From a virus, in IMG/VR virus record IMGVR_UViG_3300025313_000066, positions 1 to 37,999 of that record: 37,999 bases of DNA; one strand, written 5' to 3'. The position numbers were made by a program, and so were the translations under genes. Below the pieces are notes generated by a model, which was given only the letters and a program-made list of their open reading frames with translations, had not been told where the DNA came from and did not search any database. Each line of letters starts with the position of its first letter. Position 1 is the first letter of the stretch. Positions 63-5,833 of this stretch are shown here, piece by piece.

Positions 63-383
63 CTACTCCCCCCTCGTCGTTCGCCGTGCATGGCACCGCT
101 GACACAGTGTCAGACAGTTGTCTTCGGCGAACTGTTTGATCCTCGCATCCTTCAGCCGCTCCAAGTGGTGGACCTCCAGGTTCTTCCGATTGTCGATTCC
201 TCGCGACCAACAATCCTCGCAGCGTGGGTGTCGCGACAGGAACCACGCGCGGAACTTCTGCCACCTGGCGTCGTACCCTCTTGTGGCCGAAGTGGGCCTA
301 ACCTTAGCTCGCACGTGGCATCCACACTCACCTACGACCAGGCAATGACACCGCACACAAGCGTGGCTTATCTTCGCTGCCAT
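63..383 (-). CDS. HNH endonuclease, packaging-associated type
   Basis: This 106-residue protein has an HNH nuclease layout. A Cys-rich N-terminus (CVRCHC, then CGC) precedes RHPRCEDC, the LEVHHLERL histidine motif and the CQRCHARRT zinc-ligand end. Small HNH proteins of this form usually lie directly beside terS/terL in cos-type phages and help the terminase cut DNA. Here it is the last leftward gene, so it would lie just upstream of the small terminase if the genome is circular. The start lies one base after the stop of the preceding gene (TGA, C, ATG), suggesting coupled translation. The family call is firm; the packaging role is inferred from position. Confidence 0.85.
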   Translation of the reverse strand: MAAKISHACVRCHCLVVGECGCHVRAKVRPTSATRGYDARWQKFRAWFLSRHPRCEDCWSRGIDNRKNLEVHHLERLKDARIKQFAEDNCLTLCQRCHARRTTRGE

Positions 384-796: not shown

Positions 797-2026
797 CTAA
801 AACCGATGCGAGTACGTCCGCGGGTATAGCTTCTTCCTTTTCCATGCGGGATCCAGCGAAAACGCACGCTCACATGCTCGCATGTATTCGCTGACGGTCG
901 GCACCCACAACGTACCTGCTTGGATGCGCGTAACGAGTCCGTCCGCAAATGTCGCAAAGTCCGTTGTGTTGTACTCAAGTGCCCCGGGAGCACCTGCGGT
1001 AAACTTGTGAAAATAGAACGAAAGAACTCCCTTCGTCACGATCACCCGATCCGCAACAGCCAAGAGTTCAGCGGGTGTTTTCCCATAGGAGTCATAGGCC
1101 GGCATATACATTTCGGCCAATCCATCAGGTTGCCTATGTGCAGAGTTTACGAATGCGGTAATCGTCCGCCCAGATGCGAAACGCCTGCTGGCTTCCGTCG
1201 CAATTGACACACTCACCCCACCGTATGGATAGGCGATGAATGGCGCAGAGTCGAAGAATCCGTTGGTTTTAAGGTAGTTTGAGGTATTGACTACCTGGCC
1301 TGCCACTTGGCCAGCGTCGAGCGTCGTAAAGTTCGTGTGAGTGTGACCATGTGAGGAGATGTCGACACCATCAGCATACAGCACGTGAAGTTCCGCCAAT
1401 GAGCACAGACCCGCTCCACCGATTTCATTCGTTGGACAATATTGTGTCCAGCGGATGTCGCGAGCGACCATGAGCGGGTACATCAGATCATACACGGTGT
1501 CCGAATTGTCATCCGCCGTGACAACAATCGTGCCGCGACCATCGAGACCCTGATACTCTTTTGTGAGCACATCAGGCACAAACCAGCCAGCCTTACCTGC
1601 TGAATTGCCAAGTTCGATGCTGAAGCGAATAATCGCGCCCCAGTTACTGGCACCGCCAACCGCTGTAAATGCAGCCTTGTCAATCGACACATCATTCCAG
1701 CCGGGGATTGGATTGATGACGTACTTGTAATAAACGGTCACCCCCGTGGATTCGCAAAATTGAAGTTCAACGGAATTCAACAGCTCCGCTGAGTCGGTCG
1801 GGCAATAGAACCGAAACGCAATGTTTGTCATTGCGGACAGATCCCACGCCACGGTGCGCAACATGCGTGCCCAACCCGACACTGCAGTCCCGGCTCGGAC
1901 ATTGTTCGCGCCTTCGCGAACATACGTAGTTTCGACCGCAAGCGCCGGATAGCCTGCGGTACCAGATAATGTCCAGTCACCGGTAGTAGCAAACGATTCG
2001 AGAGTTGTTCCGCGATCAATCGTCAT
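797..2026 (-). CDS. Polysaccharide deacetylase with N-terminal beta-sandwich domain
   Basis: The protein has 409 residues. The first 165 or so form a beta-rich, jelly-roll-like module resembling a carbohydrate-binding domain. The C-terminal part carries NodB/carbohydrate-esterase-4 motifs: VTADDNS (the Asp pair of motif 1), SSHGHTH (the metal-binding His-x3-His of motif 2) and IAYPYGG (motif 3). Such enzymes remove acetyl groups from surface glycans. No signal peptide is visible, so it would act inside the cell, be released at lysis, or be carried on the virion. I place the start at the ATG at 2026, which has a CGGAG sequence 8 bases upstream, rather than at the GTG 9 bases earlier. It may be a receptor-modifying tail enzyme, but its position next to lysis-like genes also allows another role. 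Confidence 0.85.
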   Translation of the reverse strand: MTIDRGTTLESFATTGDWTLSGTAGYPALAVETTYVREGANNVRAGTAVSGWARMLRTVAWDLSAMTNIAFRFYCPTDSAELLNSVELQFCESTGVTVYYKYVINPIPGWNDVSIDKAAFTAVGGASNWGAIIRFSIELGNSAGKAGWFVPDVLTKEYQGLDGRGTIVVTADDNSDTVYDLMYPLMVARDIRWTQYCPTNEIGGAGLCSLAELHVLYADGVDISSHGHTHTNFTTLDAGQVAGQVVNTSNYLKTNGFFDSAPFIAYPYGGVSVSIATEASRRFASGRTITAFVNSAHRQPDGLAEMYMPAYDSYGKTPAELLAVADRVIVTKGVLSFYFHKFTAGAPGALEYNTTDFATFADGLVTRIQAGTLWVPTVSEYMRACERAFSLDPAWKRKKLYPRTYSHRF

Positions 2027-2056
2027 ATCACGCACTCCGCTACTTGCCGCTGGGTC

Positions 2057-2458
2057 TCACGCCTCGCCGATGATCCGTTCGATCTCACGCGTATGCTCGT
2101 CCACTCTCGCCGCACTGTTCGGGAATTCTTTCGCCGCCACGGTGCGACACATCACACATGCACTTCGCATTGCAGAACGCATGGCCATGTCGTGCGATGA
2201 AACGTTGTCGGCTATCTGGTCGCTTGCTTGGCCATGCCTTGCGCATAACACCTGTTGCGTCTCCATGCTTACCCGGAGTGTCTCATTCTGTTTTTCCGTT
2301 TTCTCGACAAGCGACTCAGTGGCGAGAACGTGGCGTTCCGCCAACCCATAGGCTTTCGTCCCACCACGCATCAGGATAATCCAACCGCCCCAGCACACTG
2401 CCAACGCGAACGCGCCCAACGGCCCGTATCGCAACATTTCAATAGCCCATTCGGCCAT
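2057..2458 (-). CDS. Small membrane protein with coiled coil, holin-like candidate
   Basis: This 133-residue protein has one hydrophobic segment near the N-terminus (about residues 10-31, GPLGAFALAVCWGGWIILM). A long charged helical region with coiled-coil character (about 45-70) and a C-terminal segment with a CVMC motif follow. A single N-terminal membrane span plus a soluble coiled coil is seen in several phage lysis accessory or holin-like proteins. A GAGGA site lies 6 bases before the ATG. The location in the presumed lysis block supports a membrane or lysis role, but no family match can be claimed. Confidence 0.7.
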   Translation of the reverse strand: MAEWAIEMLRYGPLGAFALAVCWGGWIILMRGGTKAYGLAERHVLATESLVEKTEKQNETLRVSMETQQVLCARHGQASDQIADNVSSHDMAMRSAMRSACVMCRTVAAKEFPNSAARVDEHTREIERIIGEA

Positions 2459-2471
2459 GATGTATCCTCAT

Positions 2472-2696
2472 TTACCTAGGATGTGAGCAGGCCTCGAAAT
2501 CTCCCATCGTGCACACGTATTCGCCCCGATGATCCACGATGCTCAGCAGCACCGGTGCCGTCCATGGCGGGACGACTGGTTCACGCCTCGAGCGTTGCAC
2601 GCGTTGGCATTTCGACCAACCCGACCGGATCTGTTGGCACGCCTCCGCAATCTCTTGCTGCGTCGGCTCGTAGCGGGGATCATTGCGCGACATCAT
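2472..2696 (-). CDS. Small conserved protein, paralogue of the 6.4-6.7 kb gene
   Basis: A 74-residue protein. The segment YEPTQQEIAEACQQIRSGWS matches YEPSQAEIRQACELIRQGWP in the gene at 6431-6694, so the two are paralogues sharing a roughly 20-residue helical motif. Beyond this motif comes an Arg-rich stretch and a Pro/Trp segment (PVVPPWTAPV). I recall this motif in small proteins of Planctomycetota and their phages; no function is known to me. The start codon lies one base past the stop of the preceding small ORF, suggesting coupled translation. Confidence 0.7.
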   Translation of the reverse strand: MMSRNDPRYEPTQQEIAEACQQIRSGWSKCQRVQRSRREPVVPPWTAPVLLSIVDHRGEYVCTMGDFEACSHPR

Positions 2697-2697
2697 G

Positions 2698-2862
2698 TCA
2701 CCGTCGCCGTTTCAGCACACGCCACGACGTGCGTTCCTTCACGAGTTGCTTTTCGACTTTCACAACGACCGACTTTTGCACGCGCCGTTCGAGGAGGGGA
2801 CGTTCGAGTCGACAGGCACCGTTGTGGCAGCCACCAGCGAAGAGGACGAGTTCAAACAGCAT
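2698..2862 (-). CDS. Possible small basic protein (54 aa)
   Basis: An open frame of 54 codons fills the otherwise empty stretch between two leftward genes. It begins 12 bases after the stop of the gene at 2875-3075 and ends one base before the start of the next gene. The N-terminus is hydrophobic with a Gly-Gly-Cys (LFELVLFAGGCHNGAC), which could be a short lipobox-like or membrane segment. The rest is strongly basic and ends in KRRR. No clear Shine-Dalgarno sequence precedes the ATG. The neat fit into the operon favours a real gene, but the absence of an RBS leaves doubt. Confidence 0.4.
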   Translation of the reverse strand: MLFELVLFAGGCHNGACRLERPLLERRVQKSVVVKVEKQLVKERTSWRVLKRRR

Positions 2863-2874
2863 GGGAGGTTTCTT

Positions 2875-3075
2875 TCAAAGTTTGTTGACCATGTCATCCA
2901 CAATACTCAAGGCCAACGCCACCGACTCGACGACACCTTGGTTCGCAATGTTCGTGTAGCCGTTCGAGAAGCACACGCCGAACTCGCGTTTATTCTCGTC
3001 CGTCCCCAGCCAGTAGATCACGAGCGTGGGATCGGTGCGTTTCTCGACGTCGGTGATGAAGAGGTTCTTGGACAT
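2875..3075 (-). CDS. Hypothetical small protein (66 aa)
   Basis: A 66-residue soluble-looking protein with mixed beta and alpha character (LVIYWLGTDENKREFGVCF, then a C-terminal helix). Its ATG overlaps the stop codon of the upstream gene by one base (TAATG), a coupling arrangement typical of this operon. I do not recognise the family. It sits between two small proteins with hydrophobic segments in the presumed lysis block. Confidence 0.7.
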   Translation of the reverse strand: MSKNLFITDVEKRTDPTLVIYWLGTDENKREFGVCFSNGYTNIANQGVVESVALALSIVDDMVNKL

Positions 3076-3383
3076 TAGGATTGCGGCCGAAATTGCTTCC
3101 AGAGGGCAACGATGGCTTGAATGATGGCTAGGATCATCATCGGGTTGATCGCGGCGGCTTGTAGTGCCGCACCAACGTCGTCGCCTGCCTCAACGAGAAT
3201 CGGCTCATCCTTCGTGAATCGGCCGATCAGCATGAAGACCCACGACCAGATCAAATCTGAGTCGATCGCCTTCAATGCCATTTCGCACACCTGATCGTCG
3301 ATAGTCGTGCCGGTCAGTGAAGCACCGGACCGCATGACTTCGATGATTTTCCGCACAAAGTTCCGCATTTCCAATTCGTTCAT
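3075..3383 (-). CDS. Hypothetical protein with hydrophobic C-terminus
   Basis: A 102-residue protein. The N-terminal two thirds are helical and amphipathic; a hydrophobic segment (about residues 80-95, NPMMILAIIQAIVALW) near the C-terminus could be a membrane span. Its ribosome-binding sequence (CGGAG, 9 bases upstream) is formed by the last codons of the peptidase remnant at 3390-3467. That suggests this gene originally followed the peptidase gene directly. A holin or holin-partner role is possible from the hydrophobic tail and location but is only a guess. Confidence 0.75.
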   Translation of the reverse strand: MNELEMRNFVRKIIEVMRSGASLTGTTIDDQVCEMALKAIDSDLIWSWVFMLIGRFTKDEPILVEAGDDVGAALQAAAINPMMILAIIQAIVALWKQFRPQS

Positions 3384-3389
3384 AATCGC

Positions 3390-3467
3390 TTACTCCGTTA
3401 GTTCGGTTGAAATGAATCCGTAGGCTTCGTCCGGCACACCCTTTGAGCCTGTCAGTTCGATCACGTC
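3390..3467 (-). pseudogene. Displaced 3' end of the papain-like peptidase gene
   Basis: Twenty-five codons plus a TAA stop, without their own start. They encode [20 protein letters not shown] followed by TELTE, exactly the last 25 residues of the peptidase encoded at 4062-4856. The nucleotide sequence differs from that functional copy at 21 of 25 sense codons and the stop, all silently. The remnant overlaps the last bases of the HNH gene in another frame. It also supplies the RBS of the next gene. It is best explained as the original gene end, pushed aside when the HNH cassette inserted with a replacement end. Confidence 0.85.
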
Positions 3468-3997
3468 GCTACCTTTCGCTTTGGTCGGCGATTAAACGCT
3501 TGTTGTGACCTAGTTGCCCATCGGCAATTGCCGGGTTCGTAATTCCCATCGTTGTTGACTCGGTCTATCGTCAAGTACGGTCGATATCCGTGAGACACTG
3601 ACCATGCAAAAAACGACCACAGATCACCCCTCCACTCTTCGCACACTGTAATCCCTCGACCGCCGTAGTTCTTGTATGCCCGATTTTCTGGATCTGAACA
3701 GCGGTCAATCATCTTTCGCCAAATGCCATACAAGGGATGTGTCCCAAGTCCGTGTGTAATCTTCTTGCTTCGCATAGCCTCGGACGTTGCACAGCCACAC
3801 GACCTGGCACCACCTTTTCTCAGCACATCCCCGCGAACAACGTGATTCGTCCCGCAATCACACTTACACACCCAAAACACTCGCTTGCCGCGCCTGCCAG
3901 GAGTGACGCGATCAATCCTTTCCAACACGACCAACCCGCCATAACGATTTCCAGTTTCGTCGATTGCGTTGTCAGCTACGCTTCCCTTAAGATTCAT
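3461..3997 (-). CDS. HNH homing-type endonuclease
   Basis: A 178-residue free-standing nuclease. The N-terminal half has a zinc-ribbon-like DNA-binding module (WVCKCDCG ... SCGC, about residues 42-69). The C-terminal half carries the family's conserved blocks: [56 protein letters not shown] very strong RBS (AGGAGG, 9 bases from ATG) precedes it, after a hairpin. It lies between the functional 3' end of the peptidase gene and a displaced copy of the same 3' end. Free-standing nucleases of this family copy themselves into uninserted alleles by cutting the target. The context shows the peptidase gene to be the target. Confidence 0.9.
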
Positions 3998-4030
3998 CTA
4001 TTCAGACCTCCTAGTAAGGTTTGGATCACT

Positions 4031-4057
4031 CCCTCGGGTGCGACAACACCGCGAGGG
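4031..4057. promoter_or_regulatory. Strong hairpin between peptidase gene and HNH gene
   Basis: The arms CCCTCG-GGTG and CACC-CGAGGG pair over 10 bp (minus-strand reading) with one bulged C and a 6-base loop. On the plus strand it is followed by TTTTCT, and on the minus strand no T-run follows. For leftward transcription it is therefore more likely a regulatory or stabilising stem ahead of the strong HNH ribosome site than a terminator. It may also be part of the homing cassette. Confidence 0.55.
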
Positions 4058-4061
4058 TTTT

Positions 4062-4139
4062 CTACTCAGTCAACTCCGTCGAGATGAAACCATACGCCTC
4101 ATCTGGAACACCTTTTGATCCAGTTAACTCAATAACATC
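4062..4139 (-). repeat. Recoded duplicate of the peptidase 3' end (functional copy)
   Basis: This is the in-frame C-terminal coding segment of the peptidase gene. It encodes the same 25 residues as 3390-3467. Only 4 of 25 codons (TCA, GGT, TTC and the final GAG) are the same in both copies. The two copies lie 672 bases apart in the same orientation. The functional copy prefers T- or A-ending codons more than the remnant does. Confidence 0.9.
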
Positions 4140-4856
4140 GTCTTCATTATGGCTATTTCTGATAACCCACACGATGTTATTCACGACGGACTCATCCCAC
4201 CTCATCGCAACTAAACTCAAAGCGTGCCCCCACCACGACAGCGCGATCTGCAACGGGCGCCCGTAAGCCAGAATCGACAGGCAGTGCTGAATCATCGTAG
4301 TGTCACCATCACGGGCGTTGGTGTCCCACACAGCACTGAGTCGGTACTTGGCTCGCTCGGTATCCCACCCCACCTTGAACGACTGTGGTGATGGCGCATG
4401 CTGGTTCGACACATAGTCCGCTGGAGCAATGCCTTGCTCTTGAGCACCCTTGATAAACGATTCAAGGTAGTTGCCCTTGTTCTGCCACTTCACGAGGTAG
4501 CCCATCGAGACCGGAGCAAGTTGCACGGTCGGCTTGCCTTCAATGCCGCGCACGTCCATCACTGCGCCAGTACCGCTCCACGTCCAACAGTAGCCGAGTC
4601 CATCCTGATTCCAGCGACTGCCGACTGGACACCATGACGCATATTGGTGGTACTGCGGAAATATCTTCAGTTCGTGGCAACGTGCGATCGTCTCCTTAAA
4701 GGCGTCCTTCGCCACCAAGGCATCGGGAATACCTTCCACGGGTACACCGGCCGCATCCGCATCACCGTAACGAGTGCGCCGCGGATAGATTTGCACCATG
4801 CTCGGCTGTAGCAACTGATGCGATTGGGTGTCCGTGTCAAAGCGATGAATCGTCAT
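4062..4856 (-). CDS. Papain-like (C1-type) cysteine peptidase
   Basis: The protein has 264 residues. Papain-family catalytic landmarks are visible in order. NQDGLGYCW holds the oxyanion Gln and nucleophile Cys (about residues 82-90). WWGHALSLVAM holds the His (about 208-218). WVIRNSHNED holds the Asn (about 230-239). No signal peptide is seen. It overlaps the upstream secreted-protein gene by 4 bases (ATGA) and heads a group of small putative membrane proteins, so a lysis or host-envelope role is plausible; processing of a virion or host protein is an alternative. The C-terminal 25 residues come from a recoded segment next to the HNH gene, starting soon after the catalytic Asn. The fold call is good; the substrate is unknown. 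Confidence 0.85.
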   Translation of the reverse strand: MTIHRFDTDTQSHQLLQPSMVQIYPRRTRYGDADAAGVPVEGIPDALVAKDAFKETIARCHELKIFPQYHQYASWCPVGSRWNQDGLGYCWTWSGTGAVMDVRGIEGKPTVQLAPVSMGYLVKWQNKGNYLESFIKGAQEQGIAPADYVSNQHAPSPQSFKVGWDTERAKYRLSAVWDTNARDGDTTMIQHCLSILAYGRPLQIALSWWGHALSLVAMRWDESVVNNIVWVIRNSHNEDDVIELTGSKGVPDEAYGFISTELTE

Positions 4857-5644
4857 GGGATCACCTCCGTCGCCAGCAGTTTTTCGAGGTCCGCAATGTT
4901 CGCGGGCAACGGGAAGTCGGCAACCTTTCCGCCGTCGAGTTTCGCAATGGCAATGCGGGGCAGTGGATCATCTTTGACGGCGTCGAAGAAGGCTTTGAAC
5001 TTCGAGGGTACTGTCGGGTCGATCGTTTGGGCGGCAAGCACCCCCAGAACACGATGCCCCGCTGCGGTCAGCTTCTGCCGGTGCACGAGGGACGTCAGCA
5101 GGTCTCGCTGGTTGGACGGCAGGTTGTCCAGTTGGTCCTGGTCGTAGAGCAGCAATATCTGATAGGGTCCGCCTGGGACGGGTGGCACCGGTGGCACTGG
5201 CGGAAAAGGGGGCACAGGCACATCCGGGCCCACGGTGAAGGTTTTGGAATATTCGTACATGCCAAAATCTTGGAGAGAACCGCCCAGTTTCCCGGTGTCG
5301 GTAACAACCCAAATGCCCTTGGCGGCAATCGTGTGAGTCCCAGACGCAGCCCAGCAGTAGAAAACGCTCTCGGTCGGAATTGGCTGCAGCGTGTTGGCGT
5401 TGCTGACTTGGAGCGAACCACGCAGCAACGCCGTTTCCGGCACACCCGTGGGAACAACTTTGATGACGATAGCCTCTCCGACCTGGAAGGCGTCCTTCGT
5501 CAGTTCGATGTCGCCGTATGCAATCGCACAAGCTGCCAGCACGGCCAGAAACGCAAACAGCCGGGCGGCGGCAACACCCTTGGTCTGGGAGAGCGAGGGG
5601 ATGAGCCAGCCCGCCCGGCGGGGGAAATGTTCGGACTTTCGCAC
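4853..5644 (-). CDS. Secreted two-domain protein with Pro-Val linker
   Basis: The protein has 263 residues. It has a signal-peptide-like hydrophobic stretch (ARLFAFLAVLAACAIAYGD, about residues 26-45), a beta-rich domain to about 140, and a linker of repeated Pro-Pro-Val units. A C-terminal domain with ILLLYDQDQ and RIAIAKLDGGKVADFPLP resembles a thioredoxin-like fold but lacks a CxxC motif. I choose the GTG at 5644 because GGAGGG lies 7 bases upstream; the ATG at 5659 has no RBS. It overlaps the peptidase start by 4 bases. The two may act together in the periplasm or at the envelope. The family is unrecognised. Confidence 0.75.
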   Translation of the reverse strand: MRKSEHFPRRAGWLIPSLSQTKGVAAARLFAFLAVLAACAIAYGDIELTKDAFQVGEAIVIKVVPTGVPETALLRGSLQVSNANTLQPIPTESVFYCWAASGTHTIAAKGIWVVTDTGKLGGSLQDFGMYEYSKTFTVGPDVPVPPFPPVPPVPPVPGGPYQILLLYDQDQLDNLPSNQRDLLTSLVHRQKLTAAGHRVLGVLAAQTIDPTVPSKFKAFFDAVKDDPLPRIAIAKLDGGKVADFPLPANIADLEKLLATEVIP

Positions 5645-5710
5645 GGTGAGTCCCTCCATGCTGCGCAGCGTGGAGGACGCCGGGTCCGTTTGTCAAGATG
5701 GAAACGCAAC

Positions 5711-5740
5711 CTTCCAGTTGTGTTTTTTGCTCGCTGGAAG
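5711..5740. other. Inverted repeat in the gap 5645-5833
   Basis: CTTCCAG and CTGGAAG form a perfect 7-bp stem around a 16-base loop containing a T-run. It lies in a 189-base gap without a convincing gene between the HTH gene and the secreted-protein gene. A minus-strand TTGACA occurs at 5691-5696, but no good -10 box follows. A transcription boundary between the early and lysis-like blocks would fit here. Confidence 0.35.
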
Positions 5741-5833
5741 CGTAATGCACTTTTCAGGACTCAATGGGGCTCTTTTTAAACGCCACGAAAGCACCTTCGC
5801 GCCCACCCTGCACCTCGCATCTCGGCGACTTTG

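Follow-up and report, generated by a model that had tools for sequence, protein, structure and literature searches.

An HNH Endonuclease Gene between Two Synonymous Copies of a Phage Gene End: A Candidate Homing Cassette with a Recoded End of Its Target

Results

Organization of the Locus

The window analyzed here is the whole 37,999-nucleotide stretch of the IMG/VR virus record IMGVR_UViG_3300025313_000066. Genes for a terminase, a portal protein, and a major head protein are present, as expected for a tailed phage. The features of the locus are presented in Table 1. An endonuclease gene is flanked by a new, in-frame end of a peptidase gene and by the displaced old end of the same gene, and this anatomy of the cassette is secure.

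Table 1. Features of the Duplicated Gene End and Its Surroundings in the Window
Feature	Position	Strand	Basis
Papain-like peptidase gene, invaded, intact, 264 aa	4062..4856	-	open reading frame
Seven codons preceding the junction (RNSHNED), odd codon choice	4140..4160	-	sliding codon-usage score
Functional recoded gene end, 25 codons + TAG	4062..4139	-	silent differences from 3390-3467; atypical codons
Hairpin between recoded tail and HNH gene	4031..4057	-	RNA fold, -24.2 kcal/mol for 76 nt, z -2.3
AGGAGG, ribosome-binding site of the HNH gene	4007..4012	-	read from sequence
HNH endonuclease gene, 178 aa	3461..3997	-	phrog_374 profile match, E 9.2e-64
Putative mobile insert of 672 bp, made up of recoded tail, spacer, and HNH gene	3468..4139	-	distance between copies
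Displaced gene end without a start, 25 codons + TAA	3390..3467	-	same peptide as 4062-4139
Next gene, native neighbor, beginning 6 nt past the displaced stop codon	3075..3383	-	open reading frame

The 25-residue tail of the peptidase and its stop codon are encoded twice on the minus strand, with the HNH gene in between, and the two peptides are identical. The codons differ at 22 of 26 positions (21 sense codons and the stop, TAG versus TAA), which corresponds to 24 of 78 nucleotides and to no amino acid changes. The first-pass annotation of this DNA, made from the sequence, had reported the duplication with precisely these codon differences. This pair is the sole instance found of a peptide repeat of at least 12 residues across the 38-kb window.

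We infer that the insert begins at the point where the match between the tails begins. The spacer separating the recoded tail from the HNH gene is 64 nt long and contains the hairpin and the AGGAGG motif; no terminator was called at the hairpin, and a T-run does not follow it. The HNH open reading frame overlaps the displaced copy by 7 nt, and its stop codon TGA (3461-3463) is built from displaced-tail bases (GAC GTG ATC); the junction therefore looks exact.

The HNH gene was identified as a phrog_374 HNH endonuclease by profile (Table 1). A Pfam search with the protein returned no match, and searches of solved structures, including one of the PDB with the HNH model that found nothing, left the HNH fold unconfirmed. 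Another small HNH protein, unrelated to this one (PF01844), is encoded at positions 63-383 (-), near one end of the contig, and the terminase large subunit is located at the opposite end.

Target Gene and Its Uninserted Relatives

The target gene probably encodes a papain-like peptidase. The structure model is weak (mean pLDDT of 61), and its best structural matches are papain-family enzymes. Residues Q84, C90, H211, and N234 are invariant across eight peptidase homologues, and the junction directly follows the motif RNSHNED, which includes N234. Homing sites are usually found in conserved stretches.

Seven peptidase homologues from IMG/VR, with 28-60% identity over the full alignment, have a single tail and no HNH gene directly behind it. 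No peptidase relatives were found in the phages collection, and a scan of the genome contig collection yielded one weak fragment. The first-pass reading would be at odds with uninserted relatives whose gene end equals the functional copy, and no such identity was observed. The closest uninserted homologue (L040), itself too distant to decide the point, shares 12 of the 24 differing sites with the displaced tail and 7 with the functional tail, and the remaining, more distant homologues are mixed at these sites. The comparison with L040 leans towards the displaced copy as the native end. The tail peptide is not rigid in this family: the homologues depart from it at 2-6 of 17 residues at comparable silent divergence.

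Codon Statistics of the Two Tails

The tail peptide was encoded at random and independently using the codon usage of the phage. On average 16 of 26 codons differ between such encodings, and 22 or more differ with P = 0.008; the value is P = 0.04 when the functional copy is drawn from the codon usage of L002, an AT-rich relative. No identical run shared by the two tails of the window exceeds 5 nt, compared with a random mean of 10.6 nt for the longest run (P = 0.035). Because of these values the copies are read as being at or past silent saturation, with the peptide unaltered. A simple tandem duplication would leave either near-identical DNA or an unused copy decaying through amino acid changes; here all of the nucleotide differences are silent, and the earlier statement that the silent change exceeds that of a simple duplication is borne out.

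The displaced copy has codon usage typical of the phage. In the functional copy the usage is atypical at approximately codons 233-252, with an onset slightly upstream of the junction, and codons are shared with the AT-rich L002. The seven codons preceding the junction are a possible upstream extension of the imported tract, a suggestion taken from codon choice because the displaced copy does not cover them.

Recurrence around Other Phage Genes

A set of 204 unique related HNH units from IMG/VR was searched for peptides that occur on one side of the HNH gene and again on the other. Duplicated gene ends or starts around an HNH gene were obtained for five other target genes from these units and the isolated Lactobacillus phage Lb (L377). 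The differences between copies are near-silent in some cases and diverged in others. The first-pass proposal that the insert bears a recoded gene end and leaves the protein intact is supported, and the layout is not confined to the window. The repeat scores are 127 for the window, 80 for L123, 68 for L238, 55 for L060, 54 for L055, and 46 for L102; GC-matched permutations gave a best same-strand match of 49 without the HNH sequence itself and antisense matches of up to 57, and the last three cases, which lie near this noise, were accepted by their anatomy and not by score.

Three of the cases involve gene ends. The repeat DKES[Y/F]YRHIKLTSSGV* of L123 has 12 silent and 1 non-silent differences in 17 codons, and the HNH stop codon is likewise built from target bases. 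In L055 the tail belongs to a C39-like/SH3 protein, and the displaced copy is fused in frame to the C-terminus of the HNH protein. The integrase tail of L238 shows 12 silent and 14 non-silent codons.

Mirror images are found at gene starts. In L060 the start of a Dam methylase (MKTPCSYYG) is repeated with 5 silent and 0 non-silent differences in 9 codons; an ATGA overlap links the upstream gene to the displaced start, and one of the same kind links the HNH gene to the functional start. The start of ssb is duplicated in L102 and, with an insertion at the same ssb position, in phage Lb (7 silent and 5 non-silent of 18 codons). In L102 a small antisense open reading frame (2742-2912, -) separates the displaced ssb start from the HNH gene. 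Phage Lb is the exception among 16 HNH loci of isolated phages, the other 15 of which are without a convincing gene-end duplication.

Several further candidates were set aside. The matches in L208, L301, L024, and L020 are paralogous proteins or HNH domain duplications, and the repeat of L027 reflects unrelated paralogous proteins with a common C-terminal motif. In L189 (2372-2494 and 3094-3327, -) the HNH gene is opposite in orientation to a small minus-strand target gene; a gene-end duplication there is possible but weak, with 26 of 41 codons non-synonymous, and was not counted. The repeats of L316 are two group I introns and not a gene-end duplication; they lie at 759-1689 and 2407-3352 (-) within 5.6 kb, and each match overlaps an HNH open reading frame. 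Three similar elements of L212 (3230-3420, 4300-4520, and 4640-4830) flank HNH genes upstream of a terminase-like open reading frame. These repeats are apparently non-coding and were set aside; they gave no intron match in Rfam and are possibly diverged intron RNA.

Exchanged Codes in a phiKZ-like Group

The most compelling evidence comes from this group. The target gene of L123 is a homologue of PhiPA3 gp037 (phrog_3179). Its relatives in L363, L364, and L365, at 85-87% identity, all carry the cassette. L363 and L364, assembled from two samples, show no difference in 5,539 bp. Around the locus, L364 and L365 share approximately 99% identity, with 19 mismatches over 1200-3150 and 4 over 4377-5783. 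The functional tail and the immediate upstream sequence contain 26 mismatches, and the displaced tail contains 11. All 32 amino acid differences between the two HNH proteins fall within residues 3-150, in the 5' part of the gene, and the 502 bp between this part and the displaced tail contain one mismatch.

In L365 the functional tail has the core AGT TAT TAC AGA CAT ATC AAA and the displaced tail has the core TCC TAT TAT CGC CAC ATT AAG; in L364 the two cores have changed places. The functional tail of L364 differs from the displaced tail of L365 by 1 nt, and the functional tail of L365 differs from the displaced tail of L364 by 3 nt. Both copies in both phages encode the same peptide, with two synonymous codes exchanged between the functional and displaced positions. 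Outside the 7-codon core and the stop codon, the copies of L365 are the same, and an identical run of 20 nt is tolerated. The simplest reading is that two codes circulate and that a difference between the copies is required within a short core, as the target of a nuclease would need.

L123 combines an L364-like HNH protein with an L365-like functional code. Nuclease type as a simple predictor of code type finds no support in this genome, and the code-swap reading accordingly rests on few genomes. Both gene ends of L123, recoded and displaced, are followed by hairpins (2420-2455 and 3530-3562), and for this reason the phiKZ-like cassette may also carry its own terminator.

Discussion

Proposed Mechanism

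We consider it likely that a mobile homing-endonuclease cassette enters a conserved gene near its end and restores the gene with its own, differently coded end. Cutting by the HNH protein would take place in the uninserted gene, spanning the junction at about codons 239/240, and repair of the double-strand break would copy the cassette in. The cassette-borne end would then restore the gene and would have to be synonymous but different: with the same code, next to the unaltered upstream half, it would rebuild the cut site in the genome of the element itself. The displaced end would be spared from cutting because its upstream half is lost. The silent differences would predate this insertion, since the unused copy has no amino acid change.

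We infer the cutting, the immunity, and the toggling of codes from comparisons among the sequences. The same applies to avoidance of the cut site through recoding, which the first-pass annotation had already proposed; the evidence is indirect and consists of the code swap between L364 and L365 and the concentration of their differences in a short core.

A broader model can be put forward tentatively, as a possibility that falls somewhat short of even chances. The alleles would be reciprocal, each cassette bearing a synonymous code that escapes its own nuclease but is cut by the nuclease of a rival. The code of the segment would then be a mark of self and non-self that flips with each invasion and loss, and the system as a whole would amount to a natural gene drive of the home-and-rescue type, with immunity that toggles, acting at either end of many phage genes.

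Alternative Explanations

The main rival is neutral import of the donor's gene end. The HNH gene would have arrived from a diverged relative with the recoded end as a passenger, and the differences would reflect old silent divergence under purifying selection with no selection for difference. The many amino acid changes between the copies in L238, L102, and Lb fit plain import of a donor end, the functional tail of the window has codons in common with the AT-rich L002, and the fungal mitochondrial cases have been interpreted likewise (PMC3630166). Retention of 25 of 25 residues with 22 codons changed is nevertheless unusual for old divergence alone because the homologues, at similar silent divergence, vary at 2-6 of 17 residues. 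The exchange of codes on both sides of a near-identical stretch in L364 and L365 also argues against a passenger, and we regard this explanation as rather unlikely.

Still less probable is that the copies are kept different in order to block deletion of the cassette by direct-repeat recombination, and not on account of cutting. The 5-nt longest identical run in the window and the spread of the divergence over the whole tail are consistent with such a role. The identical run in L365, where the copies differ in the short core alone, argues against it and leaves weak the first-pass suggestion that recoding avoids recombination between repeats.

The displaced end, which encodes the same peptide, could act as a functional second exon, used through splicing or translational bypass, but this is very improbable: splicing is unnecessary because the recoded copy continues the gene in frame without a break and ends in a stop codon, and no group I or group II intron was matched in Rfam around the HNH open reading frame of the window at E values up to 1. 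No intron was found in L123, L238, L055, L060, or L102 either, in a scan that included the positive control L316 (91 and 66 bits). An assembly artefact or chance is hardly credible. The window is a single metagenome contig and lacks a close relative, but the same anatomy appears in independent contigs, in the identical assemblies of L363 and L364, and in one isolated phage.

Relation to Known Systems

The cassette is thus best read as a homing element that restores its target with a recoded end. If this reading holds, phage homing genes would not be limited to intergenic space, introns, and inteins but would enter coding sequence and pay with a recoded end. Such elements would be a source of strong silent divergence that is unexpected under codon-usage models, and the target of the nuclease could be read from sequence alone as the stretch where the copies must differ. 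For L364 and L365 the prediction is direct: each nuclease should cut the gene end of the other phage and spare its own.

The parallel with fungal mitochondria that had been drawn in the first-pass annotation is real. Mobile open reading frames insert a foreign C-terminus in Allomyces atp6 and in atp6, atp9, cox2, and nad3 of Glomus sp. (PMC3630166). As in the window, the endonuclease gene lies near the 3' end of the target, the new C-terminus is upstream and the native one is displaced downstream, and the differences between copies are largely silent, which is ascribed there to horizontal transfer (PMC3630166). The fungal enzymes are of the LAGLIDADG or GIY-YIG type in mitochondria, whereas that of the window is HNH-type in a tailed phage; C-termini alone are described there, whereas the phage cases include gene starts, and no swapped codes are reported in the passages covered (PMC3630166).

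Free-standing homing endonuclease genes of phages, HNH types among them, are similar in standing alone among phage genes and apparently in their patchy presence (PMC10448857, PMC12724721). They are described as lying between genes, within introns or inteins, or as splitting genes, and a re-supplied recoded gene end was not found in the passages covered (PMC10448857, PMC12724721). The phage survey likewise describes interruption of genes through introns, inteins, or gene splitting (PMC10448857). Within the partial literature covered, no phage precedent was found for the re-supplied recoded end, the gene-start version, or the swapped codes.

A prophage can restore the 3' end of its target upon integration, as phage 21 or e14 does in icd of E. 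coli. There too the element carries a replacement gene end with silent changes; integration is mediated by an integrase, involves the whole prophage and attachment sites, and uses no homing nuclease.

In engineered homing-rescue gene drives, a nuclease is combined with a copy of the severed gene segment that is synonymous and resists cleavage. Because the arrangement described here affects at least five further phage genes, it has the appearance of a natural equivalent to this recoded rescue. The engineered drives were designed and tested, whereas the resistance of the phage cassette is read from its sequence; if that reading holds, phages would provide a natural parallel to engineered rescue drives.
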